In this document: positions 12,738-32,942 of the stretch, one piece after another
Numbering within the stretch: the stretch's first letter is position 1
Layout: each line of letters starts with the position of its first letter
From: a virus
Reading direction: 5' to 3' (one strand)
Length of the DNA: 64,000 nt
IMG/VR virus record: IMGVR_UViG_3300020200_000009
Coordinates: 1 to 64,000 of that record
Notes under the pieces: model-generated
The model's database searches: none
What the model was told of the DNA's origin: nothing
The model's input: only the letters and a program-made list of their open reading frames with translations
Position numbers and translations under genes: made by a program

Positions 12738-12742
12738 TAGTA

Positions 12743-12750
12743 ATAAATAA
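12743..12750 (+). promoter_or_regulatory. ATAAATAA box abutting a start codon
   Basis: ATAAATAA matches the late-promoter-like motif but ends right against the ATG at 12751. A transcript starting a few nt downstream would lack that ATG. It is either not a promoter, gives an internal start, or only modulates read-through from gp6. Confidence 0.3.
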
Positions 12751-15700
12751 ATGCAAAAAAATATTGCCGTTTCAGATAGAGTTGAATTCCAACTTCCAGA
12801 ATTTATTCGTGAGGAAGACAGGCAGTTTGTCCATTTTCTTTTTGAGTATTATAAGTCTCAAGAAAAAACTGGAAGACCTTACGATATTCTAAATAATCTT
12901 CTAAATTACCTAGATTTAAATAATTATTCTTCAGATATTTTATCAAGTAATACCAGTCTACTAAAAGATATTGGTATCTATGATACCAAGATTGAAATTG
13001 AAAATATTGATGGATTCCAACCACAAGATGGGTCCATTATGATTGATAATGAAGTAATCTACTACGAGACTCTAACTCGTGGACCAGATGCTATCATTAC
13101 TCCTGGTATTTCATTTTCTCAATTCAATAAGAAAAAGCAGTTATTAGAAAATCCATTCTCATTATTCAATGGTGTAAGGAAGAACTTTCCACTCTTGTTC
13201 TTGGGCACTCCTGTAGCACCACCATCTGCAGAGCACTTGATTGTTATTACATATAACAGCATGAAAGTGCCAAATGTTGATTACTTTATTGAAGGAGACG
13301 AGATTAGATTTGCAGTCGCACCCAGAGCACGTACAGGGGCTGACGATTCAGAATTTACACAGATTATCTATCTTGTTGGATATGCAGACCAAACAATTAT
13401 TACAACTGATAGTATACCTTATCAGGAATGGGAAGGAACAAAATCATATCCACTGAGAGTAAATACTCAAAGTTATACACCAACTTCTGAAATTGGTTTA
13501 ATTATCGAAAAAAATAATAAACTTCAAATACCATATGAAGATTATACTGTATTCAATCAAGAAGTAATTTTTAAATTTCCTATTGGGGCAGCTGATAAAA
13601 TCAATATTCGCTCTATAGAATATATTGCACCTTCATTTGGGTCTGGTGCACAGGCAGTTGTTTCAGTTGCAAATGATGGGTCAGTTTCCAAGATAATTAG
13701 CACACAAGGTGGAAAAGATTATCGCTTAGAGTTTGCCCCAAAGGTTATTATTCAAAGTAAAGATGGTGGTAGTGGATCTACTGCTAAAAGTTTAGTCAGT
13801 GGCATTAAAAATATTAATTTAATTGATGGTGGTCAAGGATATTCAACATATAATCCCCCAATTCCAGTAGTCGTTGCTCCAACAGATAGTAATGGTAGTC
13901 AGGCAAAACTATCATTAACGGTAGACGATGAAACGGGACAAGTAGATAGTATTACAATTGATAATTCTGGAAGTGGATACGATTTTATTCCAGCAATTAC
14001 TTTTATTAATCCAGGTGGTGCTAAAATTAGTAATCCAACCATTGATAGTGAGGGAAGACTCACTATAGGGTCTATTCAACTAACAAGTGGAGGTAATAAT
14101 TATACAAATGCACCATTAGTATACATTGACCCTGCACCCCCTGGCGGAATTAGTGCCCAAGCAATTTCTAAAGTTGACCAAGATGGTCAAGTCTATGAAA
14201 TTTCCATTACAAATCGTGGTAGAGGATATACAACACCACCTAGAGCACGCATTATCGATCCAATTGGTGCTCAAGTTTTAGATGTAACAGTTTCATCTGG
14301 TGTGGTAACAAATATTGAAATGCTTACAGGCGGATCAGGATATATTGATGCTCCATCTGTTTATATTGTAGATGATAGAAAAGATGCCTACGGAGTACCA
14401 ATTGGAGGCACTGGTGCAACTGCTGTTGCTACAATTTTTAATGGAGAAATTACAGATATCAACATTACAAATTTTGGTACAGGATATTCCACACAATATC
14501 CACCAAAAGTCTTTATTGCAACACCAAAATCTGCAAGAGCATCTGTTACTGTAGGATTCAATGAGGTTACTGGATTTGATATTCTACAGAATGGTAAAGG
14601 ATATTCACCATCTGCGTTTTTAAATTGCTCTAGAGGAGTTTCTGGTGCAGTTGGATATGACCAACAGCATAATGAGATTTATGCTGGAGAATCTGTACTT
14701 AGACAATCAAACCACCCCGCAGGATCTATAGTAACTAATTTGGATTCGTTATTTATCAAAGAAATATTTGATAAATTTAGAAGACAGTATCTTCCAACTA
14801 TCTCGATTGATTATTCTTCGGTAAATCCTGTACAAATTATAAAACAGATTAAAGATTATTATATTTCAAAAGGCACGAAACTTGCTACTCAATATCTCTT
14901 CAAAATTATGTTTGGAGAGGAAGTTGATGTTTATTATCCAAAGGATGAAATTATTAGTCCATCTGCAGCAACTTGGGTTGTAGATACAATCTTACGTGTA
15001 GAATTGATTAGTGGCAATTCAGAAAATCTTCTAGATTCTGAATTAATACAATATGCGGATCCTGTAGATCTTAATATAAAACCCGCAACGGCTTTAATTG
15101 AAAATGTTATCAGCATTATTCAAGGTAAAGATACCATTTATGAATTAGAAATTTCCGAAGAAACTCTTGCAGGGTCTTTTGTTATTCCTTATAAAACTAC
15201 TCTCGTTGAGCCTTTAACTACGACTTCAGAAATTATTACTGTTGACTCAACAATTGGATGGCCAGAAAGAAATGGCACAATTCTAATTGATGATTATGAA
15301 GAAGTCCAATATAAAGAAAAATCACTTAACCAATTTATTGAATGCACTAGAAAGAAAAATATTTCTGTTGGTGAAGATTGGGATCCTGGCACTACAATTT
15401 TTAGTAATATTTTTGTATATACAAACAAAGGCACTGACAGAGAGTGTAAGTTAAGAATATTAGGTATTGCAGAAGCAGGAACAACTGTCCTTGATGACAC
15501 TGGGTCTTATTACTTACCAGGGGATAAATTAAAAGTTGCAAATTTAGGATCGACTGTAGTTGGAGAAGAGAGATTAAACTCTTGGTTGTATAATGTCAAG
15601 AAACTGATTAAAGTTGATACTGTTACATCTGGTGGCGTTAATAATCAAACAGCAACTATAAAATGTAAGAATCCTCATGGATTGTTAGTTTCTGACCAAG

Positions 15701-18700
15701 TTACAATTTATGGTGCAAACCCTGTAGTTTATAATGGCACATTTATTGTAACGTCTCGTATTGATGACCTTACATTTTCATATCAATTAACTACTCCAAC
15801 TACCATAGTCCCTCAAGGTAATATTATTCTTTCTGTTGACTTAAACAGAGGGAAGTCTGATGTTACTTCAATTAATAAAATAATCAACGAATTTACCTCT
15901 AACGTTCAAAATACATTCTTCAACAAAGATTATGTCTATGTTGCTGCAAGTGGTCTTCCAAACTATAAAATTGGACCTTTTACTGGGTCTGCCCTTATTC
16001 CTGGAAATCAACGTAAACTACTAAGATTCCCCAGAAAAGTCCAGACTATTTCAGAAAGACAAAGTATTACTCCTGGCACATCTATTGGTGCCTGGATAAA
16101 TGGAGTTTCAATTTGGTCTTATAAATCAAGAGAATTCGTTAGATTTGGACCCATTACATCTATTGATGTTTTAAATGGTGGTGATGGATATGATGCAGGA
16201 AATCTACCTGCGCTAGAAATTAACGGTGGTAATGGCACAGGTGCTGCAGCAGAAGTGGAAATTAATGGAAAATTAGTTTCTTTTGATGTAACTAATAAAG
16301 GCAGTGGTTATACCGAACAACCTTTAGTTTCCATTGTCGGTGGTGGTGGTGTTGGTGCTACTGCACAAGCAGTTGTTACTGGTGGCAAAGTAACTAGAAT
16401 CTTAGTTGAGCAACCTGGTAGTGGATATACATCTCAACCATCAGTATCTATTACTGGTGGTGGGGGCACTGGTGCAGTTGCTGTTGCTAGCGTTAGAGGA
16501 CCCGTAAAATCTGTTAAGGTTACTGCTTTTGGTAGTGGGTATACGTCAGTGCCAACTATTAGATTGAATTCTGGTGAAGATGCATTAGCACAACCAATTG
16601 TAATTAATGGTCGTCTCGTTTCCATTGCTATCATTAATTCTGGAAAGGGATATACAACTCCACCTACACTTGTTATTAATGGAGATGGTTTTGGTGCTAT
16701 TGCAAAAGCAATTATTGGTACAGTTGGTGAAGATAAAGGTCGAGTTTTAAGTGTTGAAATTCTAAACAAAGGTATCGGATACACTCAAGGTAATACGACA
16801 ATTAGATTAGAATCTGTAGGTGAAAATGCAACATTCCAAGCAAATGTATTTGAGTGGAATAAAAATCTTCAATCAGAGTTATCTGCTAAGTTTGATTTTG
16901 CTAGTGGTTACGTTTTTACAGGAGCAAATAATCAGTTTGGTGGAGAATATGCTCACCTATCAGATCCTAAGCAGTTAAGATATGTTGTTGGTGACAATGT
17001 TTTCTTAAATCCTGTTACACAAAAATTCCAAGAATTAAGTGCAAACTTTAAGCACTCCCCAATCTTAGGTTGGGCATATGACGGCAATCCAATTTATGGT
17101 CCATATGGATATATTGACCCAACAGACCAAAATAGTGGCATTAGAAGACTTCGCACATCATATAAGTTAAAGACTAATATTGTATTTGATGCCATTACTA
17201 ATCCAACTCCTGCCCGTATTGATGGTCCATCATTAACAACATATCCTGCAGGGACTTTCATCGATGATTACTTCTATAATTTCCAATCTGGAGATTTAGA
17301 TAATTATAATGGTCGTTTTTGCAAAACTCCAGATTTTCCAGATGGAGTATATGCATATTTTGTCACTGTTGATGCATCGGATGCTGGTATTGCAGAGTTT
17401 CCATATATTGTTGGACCTCAATATAATTCATTACCAGATGGTTGGAATTTTGGTCAAGGGGCAACCCAAGAAAATATTCCAATGGATGTTGTTAGGTTTA
17501 GAGACCCATTTACTGATGTTGATATTGATGTAGAGCGCCAACCAAACCAAACAACTAGTATACTTACTACAGAAATTGAAGGATATCCAATTGTTTTTGA
17601 TATTCAAGATTCAAATAACGATGGGTTGATTGACGCAAATGAACAACAAGAGGTATTAGAGTTATCAGAAGAAGCAACTCTACAAATTTTTGATTACTTC
17701 CCACAAGTATCTGTAGAATCTAGAGTCGATATTGAAGTTGAGAGCACTACTCAATTTGAAGATGCTATAATCGATGGATTTGTAATTGAAAATCCAGGTG
17801 TTTCGTATCAAGTAAATGATGTAGTATTTTTTGATAATGAAGGTACTGGTGGATTTGGTGCATCTGCATTAATTGATTCCGTTAAAGGTCAAAAACTTGT
17901 TAGTTATACAAAAGAAATTATTGCTGATAAACCATATGGTGTAATAACAACTGAGATTGGACATGAATTAAAGCAGAATGATGAAATTATTGTAGATTCG
18001 ACTCCAGTCCTTGATAATACCAATAAAACATTTAAAGTTAAAGTTGTTGCTGGTATCGAAAAAATTAATATTATACAAAGCGGCACAGGATATAACGAGA
18101 CTATTCCACCAACATTTGAATTACTGTCAGAAACTGGACAAGATGGTGCACTTGAGCTGGTATTAGAAAATACTGGGCAAATTAATAAAGTTAATATTAT
18201 TAATTCTGGAAATGCATATGATACTGCAAATCCTCCAGAGATTCGTGTATCACACCCACAACAATTTAAGAAAACTCGTTATTGGTTAACTGAGTATTAT
18301 GAAGCATCTGGTGTAGTAAGAGTTTATCACTCTGTAACTACTTCTCAAAGATTTACATATATTTGTGGAAGTATTACTGAAACAGATGGTGATATTGCAG
18401 GATTCATTGCTAAGTTTGATGACCTTGGATCTAAGGTTTGGGAGAGAAATTTACTTCCACAAAACGCTGGTCAAAAACGATTAGAATTTGTCAAAATGGT
18501 GGTCACTGAAGACACCGAAAATGATTTTATCTATTTGGTTGGTCAATCATATAATACTGGAAGCACACAATATAATCCAGATGTCTTCCTTGCATTATAT
18601 GAGTCTGGATATAATAATGCAAATGTCCCTGATGGAATTCTGAAGTGGCAAAGGTCAATTGCTGGTATTTCTGGTAGCACTAGAAGAGATTATGTAACGT

Positions 18701-21700
18701 CAATCGCTCTTGACCAAGAGAAGAGAATTTATATCTGTGGATATACAGATACAAACTCTCCTGATCCAGACGACATGTGGGTTATCCAATGTAGTATTGA
18801 TGGGGATATTAAAGAGAAGCGTAAGATTGCATCTGAAGATGCATCTGAAAAGATGTATCAGATTCAAATGATAAAAGATGACATATTCTTCTTTGTTGGA
18901 GTAAATGAGGATAATGACGATTTACTCTTTGGTCAATTTGAATTTGATGGTGCAAATATTGAAGTTGATTGGATTAATCAAATTCCTGTTATTGGTGGAC
19001 AAGTGCAAAATCCAAAATTTGCATTTGATGAGTATGGAGCATGTGTTGTTGTTTGGGATGTATTTAACTCAGTAACTGCTAAAGTTGAAAAAATTCAAGT
19101 TAGTAAGTTTCTGTTAGAAACTGCTAGATCTGTATGGGATTGGTCCAAGACTGTTACACTTTCAACAACATTCACATCCATTAATAACGCTGGAATTTCT
19201 GTAGATATATTTGGTAACTATGTAGTAGTATCTGATGTAGTAACAGAGCAGAATGAAAAATTTGCAATAATTCATTACTTAAAATATGATGGCAGTATCC
19301 TTAAAGAAACTAAAGTTAAAGATGTAACTAATATTGGATTTAGTGCAAAACATCACACCACAGATAATTCTGGTGATTGTATTATCGTAGCAAATCGTCA
19401 ACAATCAAACCAATTAGCATCCTTTAGATTTAATACTTTTGGAAACCTAGAATTTGATTTTACAAAACAAAAGTTAGCAACTTGGTCATATGTAGACCAA
19501 ACAAATGTAACTTTAGACTCAACTGTATTTAAATATGGCACTCGGTCATTGAAGTATCTTGCTGGAGGTAAACCAGCAAAACTGAATAATTTTAATATTA
19601 CTCCAGTTGAATGGTCAATGAGAGCATGGTTCTCAATGAAGACTACTGCTTGGTCAACCGCCCATGAACCTGTATTCTTTGAAGTTGTCCCTGCTACTGG
19701 TAGCAAGATTCGTTTTAGTATCGATGGCAATTCAAGTAGTCCCAATTATCAAAAAGTATTAGTATACGTCAATTCCACTTTAGTTGCATCCTCAGTTTCA
19801 CAAACCAGTTGGACTGCCTTCGGTGGCGCTGCTTGGGTGCACATTACCTTCCAGAAGCGTTTAGAATCTCTTGGTCTCTATAAGTATGAAGTATTTGTTA
19901 ATGGTAATCTCCAATTAAGTTATCAATCCACTACTGACATTGGTCTTGATGATGTTGTAATCGGTGGTCCTGTAACATCACCAACTACAACTAACTGCTT
20001 TATCGGTAATATTGACGATTTGGTTATTGATGATATTGCACCATACTTTAACTCATACACTGTGCCAACAGCTGAAATTGAGATAACCACTAGAGACTCT
20101 GATGTTGCATTAATTAAGTTTGATAGATTACATACAAACCGCGATACCTTTACTTTTGCAGATTTAACAAAGTATAAAGACTTTGAATTTAGTGATATTG
20201 AAAGTACTACAACTTGGACAGACATTGTTATTCCTGGATTTACTACCTGGGAACTAGGTCCTGGTGGATTACAAATTCTCGATATGTCTCAGGTAGTGTC
20301 AACCTTTAATCCAACAACATTTAATTTAACTACTAAAAAATATCAATATACATCAAAAACCTCTACAATTCCTTCTCCTAGAGGTAAGAGATTACTGATT
20401 ACATCCGAAGTAATTAATAAATTCTACTTAAAAGATGCATCTTATCAAAAAATTGATAATGTGATGAATATTGTATTAAATCAAGATGTAAAATTCACAA
20501 AATATGCTCTTTTACAACAATTTAATTCTTTAGGTGTTGTTTCAGCATTTGGCACAATTGTAGAAGTCCCAACAGGATCTTTAACACAACCTGGAGTTGG
20601 AAATACCTATAAAATTGGTAAAGTTTTTGGCACCTTCAACACTACAGATAGATTAAAAACTAGTGTAGGTGATATTAACCACATTGAAGGAGAATACTTT
20701 GATACTGAAGAAGCAGAATCTCCCTGGCAACCTGGCAAAGCGTATGTAGTCGGAAATAGAGTATATTCAAACAAGAGAATTTATGCTTCACAGACAGATG
20801 GAGTTTCTGGCACCATTTCACCACAACATACAGCTGGTACTGCAACTGATGGGAATCTCAATTGGGCATTAGTCGGTAATGCAGGTATCTTTACTATAAA
20901 CTTGGCAGAAAAACCATATCCAAGACCAAAATATACAGATTTGGATATGCCTGAGTGGGATGCTCATAAGTTATATGCTGTTGGTCAAAAAGTATGGTGG
21001 AAATTAAACGTTTATACAGTAGCAACTGGTGGAGGTGGAGTTTCTGGGACTAATCCTCCAGTTCACTCTAGTGGTAATGCATCCGATGGTGGAGTAACTT
21101 GGAGTCATACATCTACTAACACACCAATTTCTTCATTTGCAAGATTTTTACCATATGACCAAGGAAATCATTACAGTGTTACTATTGAAGAAATACATCC
21201 TGGGTCGAATTTTATTCCTGGAGATGTAGTAACTTTTAATCAATCAAATCTTCAATTGTCAACAGATAGAAAAGTTGCAACTATTCTTGGATTTGCATCT
21301 GTTAAAAAAATTCGTGTTACAGCACGTTTAGAAAAAGATATTATTCCACAAACTCCTACTAGGACAAATTTAGTATACTGCACATCATCGACTCCACACT
21401 TCTATAAGGAATCAGATATTATTTTCAGTGAGGGATTCCAAGGCACTCAATTCAATGGGTCATTCTTTGTTAAGGATGTTATTGGTAGTAGAGATTTTAT
21501 ATTCGCAATCCGATCAACTGCTCTTACAGCACCACAATTTACTTCAAATGCAATTGCAAATGTTAATATCTATGCTAAGCACCCAACATTAACTTTTACA
21601 CGTAATCATCAATATAATTTTGATTTGAGTGATGCATCTAATTTTGGTTATTATCTCTCATTCTCTCAAGATAATCAATATAAATTAGAATATTCATTCA

Positions 21701-24700
21701 ATAATATTATTAGGGAAGGCACTCCAGGGATAGCTGCTCTAGGAGCTGCACCATTTGTTAAATTCCTAGCAATCGGTGCTCTTACAAATATTTCTTATTA
21801 TTTCGATCCATCACGCATTGGTAATACATCTCCAGTGGGAGCAAATTCATTTATTGACGTATTAGAAACTCCATTCAAAGGACGATTTAAAATCAATGAG
21901 GTCACTAATGATTTCACCTTTAAATTCCCGCTTTTGATAGAACCAGAAAGGTCATCTGCAGAAGTTGGAGCTGACGACCAGGATAATGAATATTCATATT
22001 ATTCAACTACTTCAGTAAAAGCAGTTGGTCCAATCAACTCAATTAAACTTGTTTCTCCTGGTGGATTCTATAAGAAACTTCCAATTGTTAAAGAAATTGC
22101 ATCTTTCCGCAGAATTGAAAAAATTATTATTGTCTCTGGTGGCACAGAGTATGCCCCTGGTGTATATTACGATGTCCCTATTTTTGGAGATGGAGAAGGA
22201 GCAAAATGTATTGTTACTGTAGATTTTGATGATGAAGTGGGGTCTGGCACCGTAGTCGATATTGATATATCGGACCCAGGAAAAGGATATACCTTTGCAA
22301 CTGTAGATATTGATGCAATCCCAGGAATTTTAGGACCACAACTTGCTGGCTCTGGTGCTGTAGCTACGGTAATCATTCCAGAAGAAGGTAGCGGATCGTC
22401 AGTATTCCTCACTGGTAAGAATATTGGTAAGATTAAGAGATTAAAAAATAATGAATTTGGATTTGGTTATTCACATGACTACACATTAAAACCAGAAATT
22501 ACATTCCCAGTTAATTTACAGTTATTCAATACTTCTATTCTATCTCAAATCAAGGTTACTAATCCTGGTAGTGGATATACATCTGCTCCTGCAGTAGTTA
22601 TTGAAGGTGGTGGCGGTACTGGTGCTGATGCACTTGCAATTATTAAGAATAATCGTTTAAGTGAAATTCAAATTAAAAATCCTGGGTCTGGATATTCATC
22701 AGAACCAACAATAACCCTTAAATCAGAATTTAACTACGTAGTTAACCTTGACCTCAACTATTTGCAGTTTAATTTCCCGCATGGTATTACAACTGGTGCT
22801 CCAATTCAACTTAGAGCTGAAGATGTCGGCACTACTGTTGGTGAGCTTCCAAAACCAAGTAGTGCTGGTTTAACAACTTTAGTTGAAGGACAAATTTATT
22901 ATGCAATTACTGGAGATATAAACTCTCTTGAGCCAGCTCAACTTAGATTTGCGTTAACAGCACAGGCTGCAGCTGCTGGCGATTACATTACATTTTTAAC
23001 ACAAGGTAGTGGTCGTCAAGTTCTATTGACGGAAGTCTTCGGTGGTAAAGCCGAAGCAGTTGTAGAAACTTCAAGATTCTTAGCAGGCGAAACAGTATTC
23101 CAAGGAAGCACTATTGAGCAGGCGACTGCAATAGGTAAAGTATCTACAAATACTGGATGGCAGATTGGTCCCAAAATTCTAAAAATTGTTGATTATGAAG
23201 GAGATTGGAAAATCGGGGAAAAGGTAAACGGTGTTATTTCTAAAGCATCTGGAGTAATTGATAATTTGAGCATGGCTCGTGGTGTGTTGAATATTGGGTC
23301 ATTAACTAAAACTCCTGGTAAGTTTATTGATGATGTGGGCAAACCTTCAGAAATTGTCCAAAAAATTCAAGATTCATTCTTCTATCAAAACTTCTCATAT
23401 GTTGTTAAGTCTGATATTCCAATTACAAGATGGAAAACCCAAATTTTACGAAATAACCACGCAGCTGGATTCTTAATGTTTGGACAATTGCAATTGTCTG
23501 GTGGAAAAGATATATCTGGACGTAGAGTTGCAACGGCGTTTACAAAAGAAGTAAACATTAATAACTATGCAAATATTAATGAAATCACTTCTTTTGCTGC
23601 GGCAGAACCAATCTATACCGACTATAATAATACAGAAGTCCTTTTCCGTAAGAAGCGTTTAACATCTTCAGAAGAAATTCTGACTTCTATCGTTAAAAAA
23701 TTGGACAATATAGCTAATCTCTTTAATGGAATTGATAAAGCATTCCCATTAACGATTCAAGGGGAGCAAGTAGTAATTAATACTAATCAGTTGCTTATTA
23801 CACTGAATGGTGTAATTCAATCTCCTGGAGATGCATATCAAGTAGTTGGCGGAAATATTGTATTCTCAGAGCCACCTAAACCGTCATCTAAGGTAGTTTA
23901 TAAAACATTAGGAATTACTCCTATACCGATTTATAGAATTGCTTTATATAGTGCACAGGTTGGTGCTACTAATTATGGTATTTTCCCAACATTAGGGCAA
24001 CAAGTAAAGGGCAATAATAGTAATGTTATTGCTACAGTAATTGATTCTGGCACAAATCATATTGATGTTATTAATCTTACTGGTGGGTCATTCCAATTGA
24101 ATGAAGAAATTGTTAGAGGAAATTTATTCTCTGCATTAGTACAAACAGTAACTCTTCTTAATACTGAAACTATCTTTAGATTTGAGGAAACAGTTACTAA
24201 TTTAAGTGGAAATACGGCAGTTATCAATCAAGTTAATGTCAATAATGGTCAATTAACAGATAGAGTAGTTGTAAGTAAAACATCTGGCACTGCTGAATAT
24301 GAGACAGGAATTTTTGATATTAAATTAAACGACTTCATTTATTCAGCATCTAGTAAAATTGCTGGTAAGGTAACATATATTTCACCTTATGTTGACCCAC
24401 AAACTAATCAACCTGTTGAAGAATTAATTCTCAACCAAGGGTCAACTTTTTACGGATTGCTGTTTGAGCGTTTAGTTAGTATTACCAATCCCAATATTAT
24501 CCTTGATGATATTTCAAAATCATCTATTACTCCAACAGAATTATATGACTCAGATAAACGTATTAATTCCAGTTTCTTAAGTTTTGAAGATGTAAGAAGC
24601 ACAGAAGTTGAATATACAGATCTTGCTAATGGCACTTTAGTAGACGAAGAATTTGTTGCAAACAAAAAAGTAGTTTATGCAAATCCCGTTTCGGCATATC

Positions 24701-27700
24701 ATGGAAGTGCTACTAATAGATTTAAAGATGCATCAGACATGATTAAATTCAATAAGCAAGAAATTATTGATTTTGCTGAAGCTGAAATTGCTGTGGAATT
24801 CCCAGACTTTTACTTCCCTGGTGATGTTATTACAAATCCATTCAGCAGATATTCAGATGCTTATAGAATGATTCAGAAAAATAAAAATCTGATTGTGGGT
24901 ATGGCATATGATGATATGAAGACCCAGTATCCATCAGCAACTATACCAAATGTTAATAAGTGCAAGAGAGATCTTACTTATTTCGTAGATGCATTGTCAA
25001 TTGACGTTTTCCGTGGGGGAAATGTATATACTAGAAAATTCACTTTGCAATATTTTGTCAATGGCACTTTCACTTATGTAAATGCTCAAGAATTAGAGAC
25101 TCGTTTCGCTTACGAAAAAGCACTGAGCTGGATGAAGAAAGCAATTACTAATCAACTGGCTGGCACTATTACTGCAGTAAACTCTACAGATTCTTGGGTT
25201 GGATATCAAGATTTAACAATCACTGCAGACCCATCACCAAATGACCCATATGGCACAAATGGAAGTAATACAAGTAACACAAATATCGATGTCTGCTCAG
25301 ATGTACAAGACGCTCTTGAAACACTTTGGGAGATAGTTGATGTTGCTTTGGGTGATGGCGACCTCACTGAATTACCAGATGAAGACCTAGGCACATATTC
25401 TCCTAATGAAATTAAGTGCCGTCGCGATATTGGTCTCTTTATTGATGCTATTGCAGATGATGTAGATAGAGGTGGAAACTATAACATTGTAAAATTCACT
25501 AAAAAATATTTCAATACTAGTGGACAACCTATTACAAATGGTTTAGTTAATGAAGAAGCACAGTCAGTTGTTGCATTTGAAAAAGCAAGAGACCTTGCAT
25601 ATAGAGCAATTAATAATCTCTTATACTATAAGATTCTTTCTCCTGTCAGTCCTAATTACAATCTTAACGACCCTCTGAGTTACGGTGGTACTGCACCAGG
25701 TCATACTTATGACGCAAACTATAGTTCTGGTAATAATCAAGATGTTGCAAACTGTGCTGATGTTAAATCGTATATTGCAACACTTACTGATATTGCAGTT
25801 GATGCCATCGTTGCTGGAAATCTGGATAACATTAATGCACTGTCAAGTATTACTGATGGCACATATGAAGACGGTGAAAATGTTAGGTCAACTAAACTTG
25901 CCTTTAAGAATAAATCTACAGGATTATTCACAACTGGAGACCAGATTAAAGGTGTAACTAGTAATGCAATTTTCAAAGCAATTGGGTCTAATACAGGACT
26001 GAAGTGGATTTATGCTGGACCAATCACTGGAACATTCCAAGTTGGTGAGTATATTACAAATTCAACTCTTACAAATCAAGGTGGTGTTACTCAAAGTGTT
26101 GTTGTTAAGAAAGCAGAATTAAGTGGCACAAAATCTCTCAAATTCTCTGGCACCTCATATCTTAGTGCAGCAGAATCATATGATTTTAATTTTGGTGCTG
26201 TAGATAATTTTACACTTGAGGGTTGGATTAGACCATCTGGTATCACTGGCACCCAACATATCTTTGATTTAAGAAGGGTTGTTGATTCTGGGTTAAGAGT
26301 TATCATGGATAATAAAAAACTCAGAGTTTATGATGGCACAACATCATTAATCATTAGTGCAGATGTATTTAATACGGCAAACACATGGTATCACGTTTCA
26401 GTCGTAAGAACTAATAATGTCCTTCAGGCATATGTAAATGGTGCACAAGTTGGGTCTAATTATGCAGATACTAACAATTATAAGTATGCACCATGCTACG
26501 TTGGATCTAGTTTCCAGGGCACCAGTGCATTTACTGGATATATGGATAATGTATATGTGAAGAAGGGCGAGTCAGACCATACTGGTGCTTTCACACCCCC
26601 AACACAAATTGATTATACAGATAGTAACATTGTGCTTGGATTGGATGGAGAAGGTCCACTTATTGTTTCGACAACAGACACTTATGCAACGTTAACTAGT
26701 GTTAATGTGTATAGCTCAACTATCAAAGTAGTAGACTATGAGAATTTGAGTTTTGTAATTAAAGATATTGACCTTGGTAGAAAAGAATACAGAGATTGTG
26801 CAAAAATTATTGGTGTGAATTCAGCTTGGATTGCTGATGAAGCAGTTGGACGCATGAAAACTCAGTTTCCTGATTTCATTATGCCTGGAGATGACCCAGG
26901 AAGTAATCAATATGGTGGCACAAATTACTGCATAAGAGACACAAGAGATTTTATTATTCCAGCTTTGGTAAAAGATTTAGAAACTGGAGGAAATTATAAT
27001 ACTTTATATACTGCTCGTACATATCTGACAACATCTGGTAAATTGCAGCATATTGGAAATGAAATTCTTCAAACTGTATATACTTGGGATGAAGTAAGCA
27101 ATATTATGATTGATGTAATCACTACAGTAAGTAGTGATTTGACTGGTGCATATTCAGATAGACTTCGTATTCCAAATAATTTTGCTTCACCTGCATCACA
27201 AGCGGTGCAAGATGAAATCCGTAAACTTATGGATGACATGTTGGAGGTTATTGCACCATCTCCTGATAGATTCCGTGATTCTGGAGTTATTATTTGGAAA
27301 AACCGCGATTATATTGCTGATGAAGTTGTTGGTTATATTCAGAACAAATATGTCCAAACTCTTGGTGGTGTTGCAGTAGATTTCCTGATTATTCCTGGTG
27401 GAGATGCCGCATGTAAGAAAGATATTAAGACTTATATTATTCCAGCAATTATTGCTGATTTAGCGACAGGCGGCACATATCAAACACAAACTGTAATTGA
27501 CAATTATCTCGATAGTCAAAAGAATATTTTGTTTGTTGAAGATGAATTAAATCCAATGTTGGATGCATTTAATAGGACAAAAGAATTGTGCCAATATGCA
27601 ATTAATAATCTTCTGTTGAACCCAGGTGAAACTGCTGCTGGTTTAGGGGTGCCAACCTGGGTGCAAGATGACTATTATGAGCCACAATATACTACGAAAA

Positions 27701-30700
27701 ATGCATATCGTGATACAACAATTACTATTGATGATGAAGGATATCCACAAACCAATCGTGTCAAAAATGATAGATTCATTGATGCAACTAATTTAATCAA
27801 GTCTAATAAAGAATTAATTGCTCAAGAAGCAGTTGCAATAATGAATAATCTATCTAAATTTGGAGATTTACAAATTCCTGGAGGGCACGTTAACTGTGAA
27901 GATGATGTTAAAGATGTATTAGATGCACTTATCCATGATTTACTGTATGATTGCAATGATAGAATATATGGAGCAGCATCACTGTATATTGAGCCAGAAA
28001 ATAATTCTCTTAGACATATTGAGTCTGAATGGGAAGCATCTGTAACAACGTTTAAAATTGTTAGAGATATTGCAACTCTAACAATGAGAAATGCTTTCGG
28101 TAGAGATTATATTCCTGGCACAAATAGATCTACTACAGCTGTAGAAAGCTATGAGCAGAATCCAAAAGACACTATTTTTGCAGACTGCGGTAATGCAATT
28201 GATGGAAATATTCGTTATATTGCCGAGCAAGCAGTATATGATGGACAACAACAATATCCAACTCTTGTAATTCCAGGTGGCTCAATTAACTGTGTGCATG
28301 ATGTTACTGATATCTTAGAAGCTCTGGTATTTAACCTTAAGTATGGTGGTGATAACTGGATGCAATATGCTACAGAATACTATGTAAACTATTCTGGTAA
28401 TTTACAGCATATTACATCTCAATCAGCTCAAACTATTTGGATTTTGAATAGAGCTAGAGATCTTGCAATTAAGGCAATTAAAGATGCTCCAATTACAAAT
28501 AACTCTGGGTCTACTAATATTCAAAGATATTATGATGCTGCACCAAATCCAACAAACCAACTGAGAAATTCAAATCAAACAACTGGAGTTATTATTACTG
28601 CATTTAATAACTCAGTCACCAGAACGTTTGCAGCAGGTACAAATAATATTGAAAATGCTGACAATACTAGCACTGGTATGGATAACAGTGACGATTTTGT
28701 TGCTCGTTGTGTTACGATACTTCCATCAACTACTCCAGTGAATTGTGTATTATTTGAAGGTGGTAGCACTGCCCAGGGCACATGGATTGGTTTCAGAGAT
28801 AATGGCACTTATTTAAGATTACGTGCAGGTACTGGAACTACTGCATATTCTGGAGGTGCAAGTTATACTAGTGATACTGGATTAGCAATGTTAGATATTC
28901 CTGTCTCAACATTGACTACAGCTGGTTACATGGATGGTAACCAACATGAATTAGTCTGGGAAGTTAGAGTTGGCGGTAATATTGCAACTGGACCAGGAAG
29001 AGTTAGATTGTTTATTGATGGTAACCTTGTTGGCGAAGCATCTACACCTGGTGTTTTAAATACTGGTCTTGGCGCTGCAGCAGGACTTTGGTCTAATGGT
29101 AACGTAGGAACGTTTGCAGCAACTGCAGCTGCAGTACCAAATGGAGAGCCAACTACAGCATGGCCATACCAAATTACTGGCACCATGTCTTACTATCGTG
29201 GTCGTTTAGTAGACCCAGGTTATACTGGTAATGAGGCAGCAGCAGTTATTGCTGATATTACGACCTTAATGCAAAAAGTTACCAGTGGTATTCAAACTCC
29301 AGCAACGGTTGCAACTCGTACATATACCTTACCAATAGTTTGGCCAGTTAAATTTACTCCAGAATCTGTTAAGCGTGATTTAAGTATTACATTTGATTCT
29401 GCTGGCGGTGGCAGTGGTGCAACCAGTACTTGGAATGCTACATGCTCAGAAGTTGCTTCTGCAATCAATACATTAATGGAAATATTAATTGATACTATTG
29501 AAAATGCAGCAAATAGTAATATTAATTATCTTTCAAGTATAACTAGAACATTTAAACCAACAAATAATACCATATATCAATATGGCACTTGCCATGATGT
29601 TGTGTCTGCGATAGATACGCTGTTTACCTTAATGTCTGAGACATTAGGTGCTGGTGCAGAGAATGCAAAAATGGTTGCAAATATGATTCTCTTCAATCAA
29701 ACAGCAATTGCTACAAGAGCACTTGATAAAACTACTTCATATTATGGCACAACAAATCTAACGATTGGATTCTGTAATAATGTCCTTAAAGCACTTCGTT
29801 ATGACATGATTACTGGAGGAAATGGGGCAACATTCTACTTGCTGCAGAGTTGGTTTGATGGCGAAGGAAACTTTATTGCATTCCCCACTGTAACTAGGTC
29901 TCATTTAATATATTGCATTACAAGACTCAGAGAATACATTAAGAGTGCAATGTATTTACTAGGTAGTGACCCAGCGTGGGCAACATATACCACTTATGAC
30001 CCACCTGGAAGATTAGAATGGTATCAAGAAGCTGCAGAATTTATTATAGATTCTTCTCTTAACCCGATTGAATTTGCATTAAGAAATTCTAAATTCCCAA
30101 CTGAAGCAAAAGTAACATTCCAAGCATCTGCTCATGCAGTAAATCTTAAGAATACTTACAATATGGGAATTGATTACAATACTGACCCAGCACTTGTTAC
30201 TCTCTTACCATTGATAGAAGTCGGATACGAGCGTGCTGAATATAGAATTAGAATTAATCGTCCTAACTTCTTCCGTAGAGGAGATATTCTCCAATATGTC
30301 CCAGCATCGTCAACTCCTCTTACTGGTTTGCAAAGTAATGAATACTTCTATGTAATTAATGCAGAAGCAAGTTGGTTTGAAATTGGTGCCCACTATATTC
30401 ATGATGGAAGATTTAGAAAATTTGAGGTAAGCACTACAAATACTGGAGCACAAATTTTACAGGTTGTTAGAAGATCTGGAGTTGTACAGAAAGATCCTAT
30501 TTTTGCAGTTGACCCATCAGATACACCAGTGCTTGGAGGATTTAATCTATCTGATATAATCTATGGAGTTACTTCAGAAGCATCTGCTGAGGTTGGGTTT
30601 GTGCAGAAGAATCTGGCCAAGATATTCAAAACATTCAACAGATATGACTTGATTGATGTCTCTGAAACATTGGGCGTATATGACAACTTTATAAATGGTG

Positions 30701-32928
30701 AGCAAGTTGTAGTCCAAGGAGCAACAACTAATACTGGATATGTTTATCAAACCAAAAATACAAATGATGATGGTGAAACATTTGTAAATATCATTGACAA
30801 AATTGGCACTATTTCAATTGGTGATACCATCTTAGGTATTACTAGTGGCACGACTGCTGAAATTGCTGCTATTTCTGACAGGATGTTGTTAAATGTCAAG
30901 TCTGGTGATTTCGCAGCAAATCAATGGTTGTTTGCAGAAAATGATGCAACGGAAGCATACATTACCGAATATGTAAATAAGAGCGGCACATTGACAGGGA
31001 ATACAGGAGGACGTATCACAATTGATGTTGAGACTATTCAGAATAGTTGGAATACTGGTGATGTAATTTATGGAAGTTTGACCGATTATATTCTTGATGT
31101 CAAAGGTATTTCTGGCACTCAACTTCAATTGAATCAGTATATTCACGGAACGAATGTTTATCAATTAGAGTTAGGAGTTGCAATTACGGATACTGGTGTT
31201 GCCGATACATTTAGACCTGGAGATGAAGTATATCTGCTTCAAGGAACTACGATTAAGAATCCTGGATTCAAAGCTACCGTGACAGAGTATATTAACGATA
31301 CTATCAATAATATCCATAGATTGTTTATCGCAAACTTGATTGATGTTGGAACAGGAGCACCTATTTCAGAAGTTGCTATCAGCTCAAATAATATTGGTAA
31401 AGTTGATATCGGGTCTAACTTCCCAACAGTTTACGCAAACACAATTTCTTACACTAATACTGGATATACTTCTTATGGTAAAGTTGTTGCAATTGAGCAA
31501 AGTGGGATTACTGCGAAAATCTGGGTAGAAAACGCAGTTGGTGACTTTGTTAATAACATGACTGTTAAGTCAGATTATGGATGGGGCGCAGGCGTATCCA
31601 AAGCAACTATTCTCCAAGGTAGAGTTGATAGATATTTCCGTGGATTTGATGGATCTCAAACAACATTTAGTCTGACTATTAATAATGGAGAAGCATACTT
31701 CCCAGATCCAGCAGGACATTTACTTGTATATGTAAATGCTGTTTTACAACCACCTGGTCCTACAAATGCTTATATTGCATTCTCTGATAAAATTCAATTT
31801 ACTGAAGCACCTGAAGTTGGGTCAGAATTTATTGGGTCTTACATAGGTAAACTTCGTCAACTAGATGATATTAGCTTTGAGTTTGATTCATTGCGCTCAT
31901 CGTTTAACTTAAAGCGTGGCGGTCTTTTCTACTCACTAACCTTAACCGAAGGGTCGTCTTCTGCTACTATTTTACCAGAAAATAATATTCTTGTATCTCT
32001 GAATGGAATTATTCAAGAACCAGGTGTTGCTTATAGATTAGTTGGGTCTAGAATTATTTTCTCAGAAGTGCCAAGATCTGGAGCATCGTTTGTAGGATTC
32101 TCATATATCGGTAGTGATGCTGATGTTATTGCTGCAGATGTGGTGCCACCTATTGAATCTGGAGACAAATTATTCATTGAAGGTGAAGAATTTGCTCGTG
32201 AAGTTGCTGTTATTGAGTCTTCTAACTCATTAGTAACATTTGAATATACTGGGTCGGTTAAAGGTAGAAATGCTGCTGCACTAGCACAAATTAAAGGTGG
32301 TCAACTAACAAGTGCAATTTTAACAAATCCTGGTAATGGATATACAACACGCCCCAACGTAGATATAATTTCATCCTCAGGTTTTGATGGAAGAATTAAA
32401 GCTCTGATGGGTATCACAAGAATTGATGTTAAAACTCCTGGAGTTGGATATAAGAATCCAGTTGTTGCTGTAGACACAACTGTCCCAGATGATTTTGTTT
32501 CTCCAACTGGCACTCCAATTAATGGTGGTATTGATATTTACAACCCCGATGAAAATGATGATATTATTGATAATCCTATTCCTCCTGGTTTTATCGCTAT
32601 CAATCAAAACCCTGTAAACGTAACTGTTAACCAAGGTCAAACTGCATTATTTACAGTTGCTGCTACGGTATCTAATAATCAAACTCTAAATTATCAATGG
32701 CAGAAGAAAGAATATGGTGCTGTAACTTGGTCTAATATTATTGGAGCAAACCAAGCAACATATATTACATTGAATGCTGCTCAATCTGATGATAATGATG
32801 AATTTAGAGTTGCAATTACTGCTGCTGGTGCTGCGCCAACTTATTCGTTGTCTGCAATTATTACTGTGCAGACAGGAGCAACAGTAATTAATAACTTTAA
32901 TCCATCAAATATTTTTGATGACATCTAA
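12751..32928 (+). CDS. Giant modular virion protein (6725 aa)
   Basis: An uninterrupted 20,178-nt frame encoding a probable baseplate or fibre protein. Residues 1-60 (LPEFIREEDRQFVHFLFEYY) and 677-745 (YLPTISIDYSSVNPV...LFKIMFGEEVDVYYPKDE) match an N-terminal module of large cyanophage baseplate proteins. Then come: glycine-tyrosine strand repeats (about 290-640, 1115-1370 and 3230-3300); a YHYH domain (about 1431-1560); a beta-propeller-like region (about 1837-2230); a LamG/ConA-like domain (about 2244-2428); two carbohydrate-binding CBM5/12-like repeats (about 2657-2712 and 2733-2790); seven Cys-containing helical repeats (about 3990-5770) interrupted by two more LamG-like regions (about 4455-4609 and 5287-5490); repeated L-NG-x-x-Q-x-PG-x-x-Y modules (about 3680-3721, 6324-6366 and 6413-6455); and an Ig-like domain near the end (about 6610-6712). 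There is no signal peptide or transmembrane helix. It follows gp6 in the same strand and probably helps form host-recognition or long tail structures. Individual boundaries are approximate and the T4 equivalent is not evident. Confidence 0.85.
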   Translation: MQKNIAVSDRVEFQLPEFIREEDRQFVHFLFEYYKSQEKTGRPYDILNNLLNYLDLNNYSSDILSSNTSLLKDIGIYDTKIEIENIDGFQPQDGSIMIDNEVIYYETLTRGPDAIITPGISFSQFNKKKQLLENPFSLFNGVRKNFPLLFLGTPVAPPSAEHLIVITYNSMKVPNVDYFIEGDEIRFAVAPRARTGADDSEFTQIIYLVGYADQTIITTDSIPYQEWEGTKSYPLRVNTQSYTPTSEIGLIIEKNNKLQIPYEDYTVFNQEVIFKFPIGAADKINIRSIEYIAPSFGSGAQAVVSVANDGSVSKIISTQGGKDYRLEFAPKVIIQSKDGGSGSTAKSLVSGIKNINLIDGGQGYSTYNPPIPVVVAPTDSNGSQAKLSLTVDDETGQVDSITIDNSGSGYDFIPAITFINPGGAKISNPTIDSEGRLTIGSIQLTSGGNNYTNAPLVYIDPAPPGGISAQAISKVDQDGQVYEISITNRGRGYTTPPRARIIDPIGAQVLDVTVSSGVVTNIEMLTGGSGYIDAPSVYIVDDRKDAYGVPIGGTGATAVATIFNGEITDINITNFGTGYSTQYPPKVFIATPKSARASVTVGFNEVTGFDILQNGKGYSPSAFLNCSRGVSGAVGYDQQHNEIYAGESVLRQSNHPAGSIVTNLDSLFIKEIFDKFRRQYLPTISIDYSSVNPVQIIKQIKDYYISKGTKLATQYLFKIMFGEEVDVYYPKDEIISPSAATWVVDTILRVELISGNSENLLDSELIQYADPVDLNIKPATALIENVISIIQGKDTIYELEISEETLAGSFVIPYKTTLVEPLTTTSEIITVDSTIGWPERNGTILIDDYEEVQYKEKSLNQFIECTRKKNISVGEDWDPGTTIFSNIFVYTNKGTDRECKLRILGIAEAGTTVLDDTGSYYLPGDKLKVANLGSTVVGEERLNSWLYNVKKLIKVDTVTSGGVNNQTATIKCKNPHGLLVSDQVTIYGANPVVYNGTFIVTSRIDDLTFSYQLTTPTTIVPQGNIILSVDLNRGKSDVTSINKIINEFTSNVQNTFFNKDYVYVAASGLPNYKIGPFTGSALIPGNQRKLLRFPRKVQTISERQSITPGTSIGAWINGVSIWSYKSREFVRFGPITSIDVLNGGDGYDAGNLPALEINGGNGTGAAAEVEINGKLVSFDVTNKGSGYTEQPLVSIVGGGGVGATAQAVVTGGKVTRILVEQPGSGYTSQPSVSITGGGGTGAVAVASVRGPVKSVKVTAFGSGYTSVPTIRLNSGEDALAQPIVINGRLVSIAIINSGKGYTTPPTLVINGDGFGAIAKAIIGTVGEDKGRVLSVEILNKGIGYTQGNTTIRLESVGENATFQANVFEWNKNLQSELSAKFDFASGYVFTGANNQFGGEYAHLSDPKQLRYVVGDNVFLNPVTQKFQELSANFKHSPILGWAYDGNPIYGPYGYIDPTDQNSGIRRLRTSYKLKTNIVFDAITNPTPARIDGPSLTTYPAGTFIDDYFYNFQSGDLDNYNGRFCKTPDFPDGVYAYFVTVDASDAGIAEFPYIVGPQYNSLPDGWNFGQGATQENIPMDVVRFRDPFTDVDIDVERQPNQTTSILTTEIEGYPIVFDIQDSNNDGLIDANEQQEVLELSEEATLQIFDYFPQVSVESRVDIEVESTTQFEDAIIDGFVIENPGVSYQVNDVVFFDNEGTGGFGASALIDSVKGQKLVSYTKEIIADKPYGVITTEIGHELKQNDEIIVDSTPVLDNTNKTFKVKVVAGIEKINIIQSGTGYNETIPPTFELLSETGQDGALELVLENTGQINKVNIINSGNAYDTANPPEIRVSHPQQFKKTRYWLTEYYEASGVVRVYHSVTTSQRFTYICGSITETDGDIAGFIAKFDDLGSKVWERNLLPQNAGQKRLEFVKMVVTEDTENDFIYLVGQSYNTGSTQYNPDVFLALYESGYNNANVPDGILKWQRSIAGISGSTRRDYVTSIALDQEKRIYICGYTDTNSPDPDDMWVIQCSIDGDIKEKRKIASEDASEKMYQIQMIKDDIFFFVGVNEDNDDLLFGQFEFDGANIEVDWINQIPVIGGQVQNPKFAFDEYGACVVVWDVFNSVTAKVEKIQVSKFLLETARSVWDWSKTVTLSTTFTSINNAGISVDIFGNYVVVSDVVTEQNEKFAIIHYLKYDGSILKETKVKDVTNIGFSAKHHTTDNSGDCIIVANRQQSNQLASFRFNTFGNLEFDFTKQKLATWSYVDQTNVTLDSTVFKYGTRSLKYLAGGKPAKLNNFNITPVEWSMRAWFSMKTTAWSTAHEPVFFEVVPATGSKIRFSIDGNSSSPNYQKVLVYVNSTLVASSVSQTSWTAFGGAAWVHITFQKRLESLGLYKYEVFVNGNLQLSYQSTTDIGLDDVVIGGPVTSPTTTNCFIGNIDDLVIDDIAPYFNSYTVPTAEIEITTRDSDVALIKFDRLHTNRDTFTFADLTKYKDFEFSDIESTTTWTDIVIPGFTTWELGPGGLQILDMSQVVSTFNPTTFNLTTKKYQYTSKTSTIPSPRGKRLLITSEVINKFYLKDASYQKIDNVMNIVLNQDVKFTKYALLQQFNSLGVVSAFGTIVEVPTGSLTQPGVGNTYKIGKVFGTFNTTDRLKTSVGDINHIEGEYFDTEEAESPWQPGKAYVVGNRVYSNKRIYASQTDGVSGTISPQHTAGTATDGNLNWALVGNAGIFTINLAEKPYPRPKYTDLDMPEWDAHKLYAVGQKVWWKLNVYTVATGGGGVSGTNPPVHSSGNASDGGVTWSHTSTNTPISSFARFLPYDQGNHYSVTIEEIHPGSNFIPGDVVTFNQSNLQLSTDRKVATILGFASVKKIRVTARLEKDIIPQTPTRTNLVYCTSSTPHFYKESDIIFSEGFQGTQFNGSFFVKDVIGSRDFIFAIRSTALTAPQFTSNAIANVNIYAKHPTLTFTRNHQYNFDLSDASNFGYYLSFSQDNQYKLEYSFNNIIREGTPGIAALGAAPFVKFLAIGALTNISYYFDPSRIGNTSPVGANSFIDVLETPFKGRFKINEVTNDFTFKFPLLIEPERSSAEVGADDQDNEYSYYSTTSVKAVGPINSIKLVSPGGFYKKLPIVKEIASFRRIEKIIIVSGGTEYAPGVYYDVPIFGDGEGAKCIVTVDFDDEVGSGTVVDIDISDPGKGYTFATVDIDAIPGILGPQLAGSGAVATVIIPEEGSGSSVFLTGKNIGKIKRLKNNEFGFGYSHDYTLKPEITFPVNLQLFNTSILSQIKVTNPGSGYTSAPAVVIEGGGGTGADALAIIKNNRLSEIQIKNPGSGYSSEPTITLKSEFNYVVNLDLNYLQFNFPHGITTGAPIQLRAEDVGTTVGELPKPSSAGLTTLVEGQIYYAITGDINSLEPAQLRFALTAQAAAAGDYITFLTQGSGRQVLLTEVFGGKAEAVVETSRFLAGETVFQGSTIEQATAIGKVSTNTGWQIGPKILKIVDYEGDWKIGEKVNGVISKASGVIDNLSMARGVLNIGSLTKTPGKFIDDVGKPSEIVQKIQDSFFYQNFSYVVKSDIPITRWKTQILRNNHAAGFLMFGQLQLSGGKDISGRRVATAFTKEVNINNYANINEITSFAAAEPIYTDYNNTEVLFRKKRLTSSEEILTSIVKKLDNIANLFNGIDKAFPLTIQGEQVVINTNQLLITLNGVIQSPGDAYQVVGGNIVFSEPPKPSSKVVYKTLGITPIPIYRIALYSAQVGATNYGIFPTLGQQVKGNNSNVIATVIDSGTNHIDVINLTGGSFQLNEEIVRGNLFSALVQTVTLLNTETIFRFEETVTNLSGNTAVINQVNVNNGQLTDRVVVSKTSGTAEYETGIFDIKLNDFIYSASSKIAGKVTYISPYVDPQTNQPVEELILNQGSTFYGLLFERLVSITNPNIILDDISKSSITPTELYDSDKRINSSFLSFEDVRSTEVEYTDLANGTLVDEEFVANKKVVYANPVSAYHGSATNRFKDASDMIKFNKQEIIDFAEAEIAVEFPDFYFPGDVITNPFSRYSDAYRMIQKNKNLIVGMAYDDMKTQYPSATIPNVNKCKRDLTYFVDALSIDVFRGGNVYTRKFTLQYFVNGTFTYVNAQELETRFAYEKALSWMKKAITNQLAGTITAVNSTDSWVGYQDLTITADPSPNDPYGTNGSNTSNTNIDVCSDVQDALETLWEIVDVALGDGDLTELPDEDLGTYSPNEIKCRRDIGLFIDAIADDVDRGGNYNIVKFTKKYFNTSGQPITNGLVNEEAQSVVAFEKARDLAYRAINNLLYYKILSPVSPNYNLNDPLSYGGTAPGHTYDANYSSGNNQDVANCADVKSYIATLTDIAVDAIVAGNLDNINALSSITDGTYEDGENVRSTKLAFKNKSTGLFTTGDQIKGVTSNAIFKAIGSNTGLKWIYAGPITGTFQVGEYITNSTLTNQGGVTQSVVVKKAELSGTKSLKFSGTSYLSAAESYDFNFGAVDNFTLEGWIRPSGITGTQHIFDLRRVVDSGLRVIMDNKKLRVYDGTTSLIISADVFNTANTWYHVSVVRTNNVLQAYVNGAQVGSNYADTNNYKYAPCYVGSSFQGTSAFTGYMDNVYVKKGESDHTGAFTPPTQIDYTDSNIVLGLDGEGPLIVSTTDTYATLTSVNVYSSTIKVVDYENLSFVIKDIDLGRKEYRDCAKIIGVNSAWIADEAVGRMKTQFPDFIMPGDDPGSNQYGGTNYCIRDTRDFIIPALVKDLETGGNYNTLYTARTYLTTSGKLQHIGNEILQTVYTWDEVSNIMIDVITTVSSDLTGAYSDRLRIPNNFASPASQAVQDEIRKLMDDMLEVIAPSPDRFRDSGVIIWKNRDYIADEVVGYIQNKYVQTLGGVAVDFLIIPGGDAACKKDIKTYIIPAIIADLATGGTYQTQTVIDNYLDSQKNILFVEDELNPMLDAFNRTKELCQYAINNLLLNPGETAAGLGVPTWVQDDYYEPQYTTKNAYRDTTITIDDEGYPQTNRVKNDRFIDATNLIKSNKELIAQEAVAIMNNLSKFGDLQIPGGHVNCEDDVKDVLDALIHDLLYDCNDRIYGAASLYIEPENNSLRHIESEWEASVTTFKIVRDIATLTMRNAFGRDYIPGTNRSTTAVESYEQNPKDTIFADCGNAIDGNIRYIAEQAVYDGQQQYPTLVIPGGSINCVHDVTDILEALVFNLKYGGDNWMQYATEYYVNYSGNLQHITSQSAQTIWILNRARDLAIKAIKDAPITNNSGSTNIQRYYDAAPNPTNQLRNSNQTTGVIITAFNNSVTRTFAAGTNNIENADNTSTGMDNSDDFVARCVTILPSTTPVNCVLFEGGSTAQGTWIGFRDNGTYLRLRAGTGTTAYSGGASYTSDTGLAMLDIPVSTLTTAGYMDGNQHELVWEVRVGGNIATGPGRVRLFIDGNLVGEASTPGVLNTGLGAAAGLWSNGNVGTFAATAAAVPNGEPTTAWPYQITGTMSYYRGRLVDPGYTGNEAAAVIADITTLMQKVTSGIQTPATVATRTYTLPIVWPVKFTPESVKRDLSITFDSAGGGSGATSTWNATCSEVASAINTLMEILIDTIENAANSNINYLSSITRTFKPTNNTIYQYGTCHDVVSAIDTLFTLMSETLGAGAENAKMVANMILFNQTAIATRALDKTTSYYGTTNLTIGFCNNVLKALRYDMITGGNGATFYLLQSWFDGEGNFIAFPTVTRSHLIYCITRLREYIKSAMYLLGSDPAWATYTTYDPPGRLEWYQEAAEFIIDSSLNPIEFALRNSKFPTEAKVTFQASAHAVNLKNTYNMGIDYNTDPALVTLLPLIEVGYERAEYRIRINRPNFFRRGDILQYVPASSTPLTGLQSNEYFYVINAEASWFEIGAHYIHDGRFRKFEVSTTNTGAQILQVVRRSGVVQKDPIFAVDPSDTPVLGGFNLSDIIYGVTSEASAEVGFVQKNLAKIFKTFNRYDLIDVSETLGVYDNFINGEQVVVQGATTNTGYVYQTKNTNDDGETFVNIIDKIGTISIGDTILGITSGTTAEIAAISDRMLLNVKSGDFAANQWLFAENDATEAYITEYVNKSGTLTGNTGGRITIDVETIQNSWNTGDVIYGSLTDYILDVKGISGTQLQLNQYIHGTNVYQLELGVAITDTGVADTFRPGDEVYLLQGTTIKNPGFKATVTEYINDTINNIHRLFIANLIDVGTGAPISEVAISSNNIGKVDIGSNFPTVYANTISYTNTGYTSYGKVVAIEQSGITAKIWVENAVGDFVNNMTVKSDYGWGAGVSKATILQGRVDRYFRGFDGSQTTFSLTINNGEAYFPDPAGHLLVYVNAVLQPPGPTNAYIAFSDKIQFTEAPEVGSEFIGSYIGKLRQLDDISFEFDSLRSSFNLKRGGLFYSLTLTEGSSSATILPENNILVSLNGIIQEPGVAYRLVGSRIIFSEVPRSGASFVGFSYIGSDADVIAADVVPPIESGDKLFIEGEEFAREVAVIESSNSLVTFEYTGSVKGRNAAALAQIKGGQLTSAILTNPGNGYTTRPNVDIISSSGFDGRIKALMGITRIDVKTPGVGYKNPVVAVDTTVPDDFVSPTGTPINGGIDIYNPDENDDIIDNPIPPGFIAINQNPVNVTVNQGQTALFTVAATVSNNQTLNYQWQKKEYGAVTWSNIIGANQATYITLNAAQSDDNDEFRVAITAAGAAPTYSLSAIITVQTGATVINNFNPSNIFDDI
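24718..30060 (+). repeat. Seven-copy helical repeat region within the giant protein
   Basis: A roughly 120-170 residue unit recurs. Its pattern is a helix ending N-K-x-x-I-A-x-E-A-V, a target I-P-G-G, a C-x-x-D-V/I motif, then a DAL...DL-x-x-GGN segment, a Y-x-x-x-x-G-x-L strand and a helix ARDLAxxAINN. Copies start near 24718, 25400, 26780, 27270, 27770, 28180 and 29680. Two beta-rich LamG-like insertions lie between copies. The region is diverged but clearly homologous. Confidence 0.65.
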
Positions 32929-32932: not shown

Positions 32933-32942
32933 AAGGAAAAAC

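Follow-up and report, generated by a model that had tools for sequence, protein, structure and literature searches.

What kind of protein is encoded by a single reading frame of 6725 codons lodged in a baseplate gene cluster, and what might the modules strung along it do? The frame spans 20,178 nt, or 31.5% of the window, i.e., of the 64,000 nucleotides analysed here, which are the opening 64 kb of an IMG/VR virus record 89,743 bases long. The first-pass annotation had described one uninterrupted frame of this extent in the gp6-gp8 baseplate region, combining many modules in one virion polypeptide of extreme size. The frame, its share of the window, the locus and the modularity were all correctly described; the extreme size was not, and two features had been overlooked, namely, a relationship to T4 gp7 and a series of phycobiliprotein-like repeats. 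The giant ORF and the family to which it belongs are already known, as is its occurrence in virions, and its size is not news; the importance of the locus lies in the phycobiliprotein-like modules.

Results

The locus and the family

The genes at this locus follow the order PAAR, gp25, gp6, the giant, a YHYH protein, a gp9/gp10-like connector, a phrog_708 protein and gp8, with gp25 and gp6 directly upstream of the giant and gp8 downstream, beyond three other genes (Table 1). The gp25-gp6-[giant]-...-gp8 synteny is shared by about 13-15 cyanomyoviruses; the T4 gene between gp6 and gp8 is gp7, and the giant occupies the gp7 slot. The PHROG 701 profile (6136 positions) matches the giant nearly end to end and in order, from residue 5 to ~6590, the two halves of the protein scoring 4139 and 2306 bits. 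Relatives of the N-terminal part were found in 343 phage records, nearly all from cyanophages, and IMG/VR contains at least 584 contigs with relatives of the core. The giant is matched best by the proteins of S-WAM1, S-SZBM1, P-RSM6 and P-TIM40.

Within its own family, the giant is of ordinary size. Among 15 cyanomyovirus orthologues, the product of the locus ranges from 1937 to 8573 aa, and the window protein is the median (P-RSM6, 8573; P-TIM40, 7351; P-SSM7, 7124; S-SSM4, 6932; ACG-2014d, 6817; S-WAM1, 6737; S-SZBM1, 6619; S-RIM8, 6395; Syn9, 6076; P-HM1, 4446; SynMITS9220M01, 4067; ACG-2014j, 3516; and S-CREM2, 1937 aa, the last assigned by gene position). In P-SSM4, a frame of 7312 aa bears phycobiliprotein-like repeats and, like the versions in P-RSM6, P-TIM40 and P-SSM7, exceeds the window protein in length. 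Orthologue comparison places most of the length variation at aa 1770-2790 and 3980-5900, between the conserved parts at aa 1-1770, 2790-3980 and 6300-6590.

Table 1. Features of the giant gene, its baseplate neighbours and the cpeT loci inspected
Feature	Residues (aa)	Position (nt)	Strand	Basis or remark
Giant gp7-type baseplate wedge protein (best reading)	6725 in total	12751-32928	+	phrog_701, second contig, dN/dS
N-terminal block	1-121	12751-13113	+	Retained even in the 3516-aa ACG-2014j version (its 5-123)
gp7 motif 1, FYxSKGTxxSxxYLFKxLFGEEV	~699-728	14845-14934	+	T4 gp7 730-759; hhalign, PDB, Pfam
GSGYTxxPxV-type beta repeats	~1184-1311	16300-16683	+	PHROG matches
YHYH domain (PF14240)	1369-1542	16855-17376	+	Pfam E 4.1e-30
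gp7 motif 2, YxIKSxxxIxxWKxxxxxNxHPAGF	~3550-3579	23398-23487	+	T4 gp7 864-893; hhalign
Phycobiliprotein-like repeat 1	4044-4132	24880-25146	+	CKRD
Phycobiliprotein-like repeat 2	4195-4287	25333-25611	+	CRRD
Laminin_G_3 lectin-type domain (PF13385)	4467-4603	26149-26559	+	Pfam E 5.7e-15
Phycobiliprotein-like repeat 3	4690-4790	26818-27120	+	CIRD; modelled unit, aa 4676-4835
Phycobiliprotein-like repeat 4	4851-4951	27301-27603	+	CKKD
Phycobiliprotein-like repeat 5	5019-5112	27805-28086	+	CEDD
Phycobiliprotein-like repeat 6	5153-5243	28207-28479	+	CVHD
Phycobiliprotein-like repeat 7	5649-5734	29695-29952	+	Degenerate, without CxxD
C-terminal block, fold unassigned	6300-6590	31648-32520	+	Strongly conserved; orthologue comparison
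gp25, baseplate wedge		10208-10621	+	phrog_261; upstream
gp6, baseplate wedge		10623-12737	+	phrog_219; directly upstream of the giant
gp8, baseplate wedge		37975-39510	+	Pfam Phage-Gp8; downstream
cpeT loci inspected		L042 8953-9480; L043 9571-10095; L153-L160

A second very large ORF of the window (39512-46831, 2439 aa) contains DUF4815 and has orthologues named VrlC or baseplate wedge tail fiber connector. A 2301-aa ORF at 47491-54396 has an N-terminal major tropism determinant domain (Mtd_N, E 8.6e-13). It also contains, at 53581-53825, a 75-bp tandem repeat with a unit of 25 aa and, to judge from these features, probably encodes a receptor-binding fibre.

Relationship to T4 gp7

A profile of 13 giants was compared, in 45 sliding windows, with a profile of five Straboviridae gp7 proteins and with 12 control T4 tail/neck proteins. 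Only two places in the giant match the gp7 profile, and they do so in gp7 order: motif 1 at a hhalign P of 2.1e-8 (probability 95) and motif 2 at 1.5e-4, weak alone, compared with 0.013 for the best of the controls. In a blind search of 177,635 PDB sequences, the motif-1 profile retrieved gp7 first and second (E 7.8e-5 and 2.4e-4), and the same motif is matched by Pfam Baseplate_wedge (PF23786, E 6.5e-4). For the motif-2 profile, gp7 was one of only two PDB matches at E<10, aligned at the correct place, with an E of 1.2 that is not significant alone. A phmmer search with T4 gp7 found no match among the giants, and single-sequence PDB searches with the two halves of the giant returned nothing significant; profiles were therefore needed.

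The similarity is confined to these two motifs of ~30 residues each. Profile comparison found no counterpart of T4 gp7 residues 1-640 anywhere in the giant, the alignment of the N-terminal block with gp7 645-765 is weak and non-significant (P 0.07), and the AlphaFold2 model of the putative gp7 core (aa 640-960) is too poor for use, with a pLDDT of 38. Because nothing matches gp7 1-640 and the core model is of such quality, we refer to the giant as gp7-derived and not as a complete gp7; it is best read as a gp7-like core interrupted by huge insertions and followed by a long C-terminal extension. An annotation as gp7 or wedge initiator is already present on the records of P-HM1, S-RIM8 and SynMITS9220M01 and on the original records of S-SZBM1 and S-WAM1. 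In P-HM1 (L009), two genes are annotated as gp7, one in the gp7 slot (8130-21470, 4446 aa) and the other further downstream (32325-39602, 2425 aa). The gp7 link would provide a function for a family of at least 584 IMG/VR contigs that is now labelled only as virion structural protein.

Virion presence and proposed baseplate role

The S-SZBM1 orthologue, named baseplate wedge initiator (6619 aa, 724.20 kDa), was identified by LC-MS in purified virions, with 71 peptides, a coverage of 13.5% and an emPAI of 0.41 (PMC9146016, Table 1), which answers in part, for this ~52-56% identical orthologue, the question of incorporation raised at the outset. Taking this together with the locus and the motifs, we find it likely that the giant is the cyanophage counterpart of gp7, a single chain built into the baseplate with its modules facing the host. 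The protein would most probably be made as one chain and then incorporated, its gp7-like core, kept as scattered C-terminal segments, starting the assembly of each of the six wedges and contacting the gp6 and gp8 neighbours. The ~2,800 residues inserted between the two gp7 motifs (beta-repeat, YHYH and other modules) and the ~3,100 residues after motif 2, with the Laminin-G lectin-type domain and seven repeats of predicted phycobiliprotein fold, would form an extensive layer projecting outward to contact or bind the host surface. Where in the baseplate the giant sits, and in how many copies, is inferred by analogy: T4 gp7 is present in six copies per baseplate, and six copies of the giant would add ~4.4 MDa to this structure. 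S-SZBM1, S-WAM1, P-RSM6 and P-TIM40 are reported to be without long tail fibres (PMC9146016), so the closest relatives of the giant leave room for adsorption via the baseplate. Considering the domain types and the missing tail fibres, such a role of the lectin-type and other modules is plausible.

The great length and the clear modular boundaries would also suit a polyprotein that is translated whole and then cut into several virion proteins. This is unlikely: gp7 is not known to be cleaved, Pfam, PHROG and NCBIfam profile searches detected no protease-like domain in the giant, and a single frame keeps the N-terminal, central and C-terminal core blocks together in each of the 15 orthologues, including the 1937-aa version. 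The published mass spectrometry of the S-SZBM1 orthologue does not state peptide positions, which leaves some room for cleavage, but lists the protein as one entry (PMC9146016). We also consider it unlikely that a tail fibre or adhesin simply happens to be encoded next to gp6, as might be suggested by the lectin-type, YHYH and repeat modules of the giant and by the name 'putative fiber' of the Syn9 orthologue, given that the gp7 motifs, the gp7 operon slot and the conserved core present in every version all point to a wedge scaffold.

The frame itself runs from ATG to stop, with no internal stops, and encodes a protein of ~735 kDa; at the base composition of the window, a stop-free run of 6725 codons is expected by chance at ~1e-224. 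The same gene is found on a separate contig, IMGVR_UViG_3300020214_000064 (L028 and L019), with 4 mismatches and no gaps. Over codons 661-6725, 90% of the gene, comparison with a relative of ~75% nucleotide identity (L021) yields a dN of 0.145 and a dS of 1.48, with dN well under dS in each 300-codon block. Thus, the gene is intact, purifying selection acts on it across the tested 90%, and a misassembly or sequencing error joining adjacent genes, in favour of which no evidence was found, is refuted by the second contig, by dN/dS throughout and by isolate genomes with the same single frame.

Shared structural modules

The modules identified in the chain include the YHYH domain, beta repeats, the Laminin_G_3 domain and the phycobiliprotein-like repeats. 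The GSGYTxxPxV-type beta repeats are also present at aa ~407-535 and ~3273-3320 and are common to several other cyanophage structural families, and the gene after the giant (32943-34544) also encodes a YHYH domain (E 1.4e-34). That several structural proteins here have both elements in common suggests an exchange of modules and accounts for the cross-hits between PHROGs. The C-terminal block had no match in the PDB.

Phycobiliprotein-like repeats

The giant contains seven helical repeats of ~100 residues between aa 4044 and 5734, and at least one such repeat is found in 12 of the 13 giants compared. A Pfam scan of the repeat-bearing half returned Phycobilisome at a summed E of 1.2e-6, with no single stretch significant; single repeat copies were matched by Pfam in eight of 21 cases, at or below significance (best 0.0014), and NCBIfam returned allophycocyanin beta (E 0.0033). 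A profile of the 21 copies matched 141 PDB sequences at E<10 (best E 2.8e-6), and the 60 listed among these are all phycobiliproteins, including cryptophyte forms, the engineered smURFP and a bacterial fluorescent family member. In this search, the C-x-x-D of the repeats aligns on the KCARD bilin-attachment motif. One repeat unit (aa 4676-4835) was modelled with AlphaFold2 without templates at a pLDDT of 84 and a pTM of 0.83, and the top 50 PDB matches of the model in Foldseek are all phycobiliproteins, at a probability of 1.00 and TM of 0.54-0.74 (best E 0.002). Other structural and tail proteins of Synechococcus phages have BFVD models that contain the same fold. By profile and by model, the repeats are homologous to phycobiliproteins, with a predicted globin-like phycobiliprotein fold. 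One repeat, searched against genome contigs, yielded no cellular relative.

Phycobiliproteins and related bilin-binding globins bind their chromophore at a CXRD motif (PMC10151467). At the aligned attachment site, Cys is present in 95% and Asp in 89% of ~100 repeat copies, closely related copies being counted. In the window, three of the seven repeats carry CxRD and six carry CxxD; among 57 copies from 12 giants, 25 have the full CxRD, 22-23 another CxxD and nine neither.

In the open-access literature searched, phycobiliprotein-like domains are nowhere described for structural proteins of phages. Within that scope, these repeats are the new part of the present analysis.

Bilin genes of repeat-bearing phages

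The gene cpeT, which encodes a phage bilin-lyase, has baseplate-hub or tail-fibre genes as its neighbours in each of the 10 repeat-bearing phages in which it was found; the P-RSM6 CpeT match is under the ORF length limit of this placement survey. In S-PM2 and ACG-2014j, cpeT is located 1.4 kb and 0.3 kb, respectively, upstream of a repeat-carrying tail-fibre gene (product of ~3,800-4,060 aa), in seven more genomes it adjoins or just precedes a gp5-like hub/lysozyme gene, with a gap of 2-25 bases in S-WAM1, S-SZBM1 and P-TIM40, and in P-HM1 it is found a few genes ahead of a tail-fibre gene. A tRNA cluster of S-PM2 is annotated inside the short-tail-fibre CDS (L042 13557-18384; record 168556-173383); ARAGORN detected no tRNA at that place and nine in 8383-10303 of the locus, so the annotated positions look misplaced.

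CpeT is present in 10 of 15 repeat-bearing and in none of eight repeat-free genomes (Fisher p 0.0027; hand-picked sample). Because the terminase tree holds only 2-3 independent pairs, such that shared ancestry could explain the pattern, this co-occurrence is not counted as correlated evolution, and we set that interpretation aside. Bilin reductases show no association with the repeats (7/15 against 2/8, p 0.40). Neither CpeT nor a bilin reductase was found in the record to which the window belongs, an incomplete genome, and the repeat-bearing ACG-2014d, S-T4 and S-SKS1 have no detectable CpeT and no above-threshold bilin reductase.

Discussion

We propose that the phycobiliprotein-like domains form a decoration of the baseplate that serves host recognition, and that bilins may be covalently bound to them. 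Somewhat the more probable view, in our judgement, is that the repeats form a bilin-free structural or protein-binding scaffold derived from the phycobiliprotein/globin fold, in which Cys and Asp would serve folding, or else mimicry allowing them to bind host proteins. The restriction of the full CxRD to a part of the copies argues for a bilin-free state, as do the three repeat-bearing phages without detectable CpeT or above-threshold bilin reductase; however, a near-invariant Cys and Asp at the aligned site and cpeT within the tail gene cluster are not expected of a mere scaffold. More tentatively, these baseplate and tail proteins might be chromoproteins, with bilins produced by phage pcyA, pebS and ho1 or by the host and covalently attached to the repeats during infection by the phage CpeT-type lyase, so that the virion would be pigmented or bilin-stabilised. 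The small remaining probability falls to other roles.

The usual explanation of cyanophage bilin genes is host light harvesting. Prochlorococcus is without intact phycobilisomes, yet its phages carry bilin genes, too. The role of these genes has been called a mystery (PMC3037559). If the repeats are bilin-loaded, the target of the phage bilin genes would be the virion and not host light harvesting; a phycobiliprotein-fold substrate in the phage's own virion, with a lyase encoded beside the hub and tail-fibre genes, would provide a different, testable answer.

Whether bilin-free, as we favour, or bilin-loaded, the repeats belong to a protein that can be set against several known systems. One is S-SZBM1_208 (6619 aa, PMC9146016), a full-length orthologue that is found in virions and differs in having another copy of the variable repeat region. 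PHROG 701 shares the in-order match over nearly the whole ORF and the same locus in the cyanomyoviruses compared but is filed, without a function, under 'head and packaging' (virion structural protein); this category looks wrong because gene order and the gp7 motifs indicate the baseplate. T4 gp7, the wedge initiator (1032 aa; PDB 5IV5, 5HX2), has the same position between gp6 and gp8 and the same two C-terminal motifs in the same order, whereas the giant is 6.5 times longer, shows no counterpart of gp7 residues 1-640, separates the motifs by ~2,800 rather than ~100 residues and adds lectin, YHYH and phycobiliprotein-like modules. Finally, the repeats share with phycocyanin, phycoerythrin and allophycocyanin (PF00502) the profile, the predicted fold and, in most copies, the C-x-x-D part of the C-x-R/x-D motif. 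Unlike in these proteins, the Arg of CxRD is often replaced at the putative bilin sites, no partner subunit is known, and the copies in the giant are tandem domains inside a phage structural protein.
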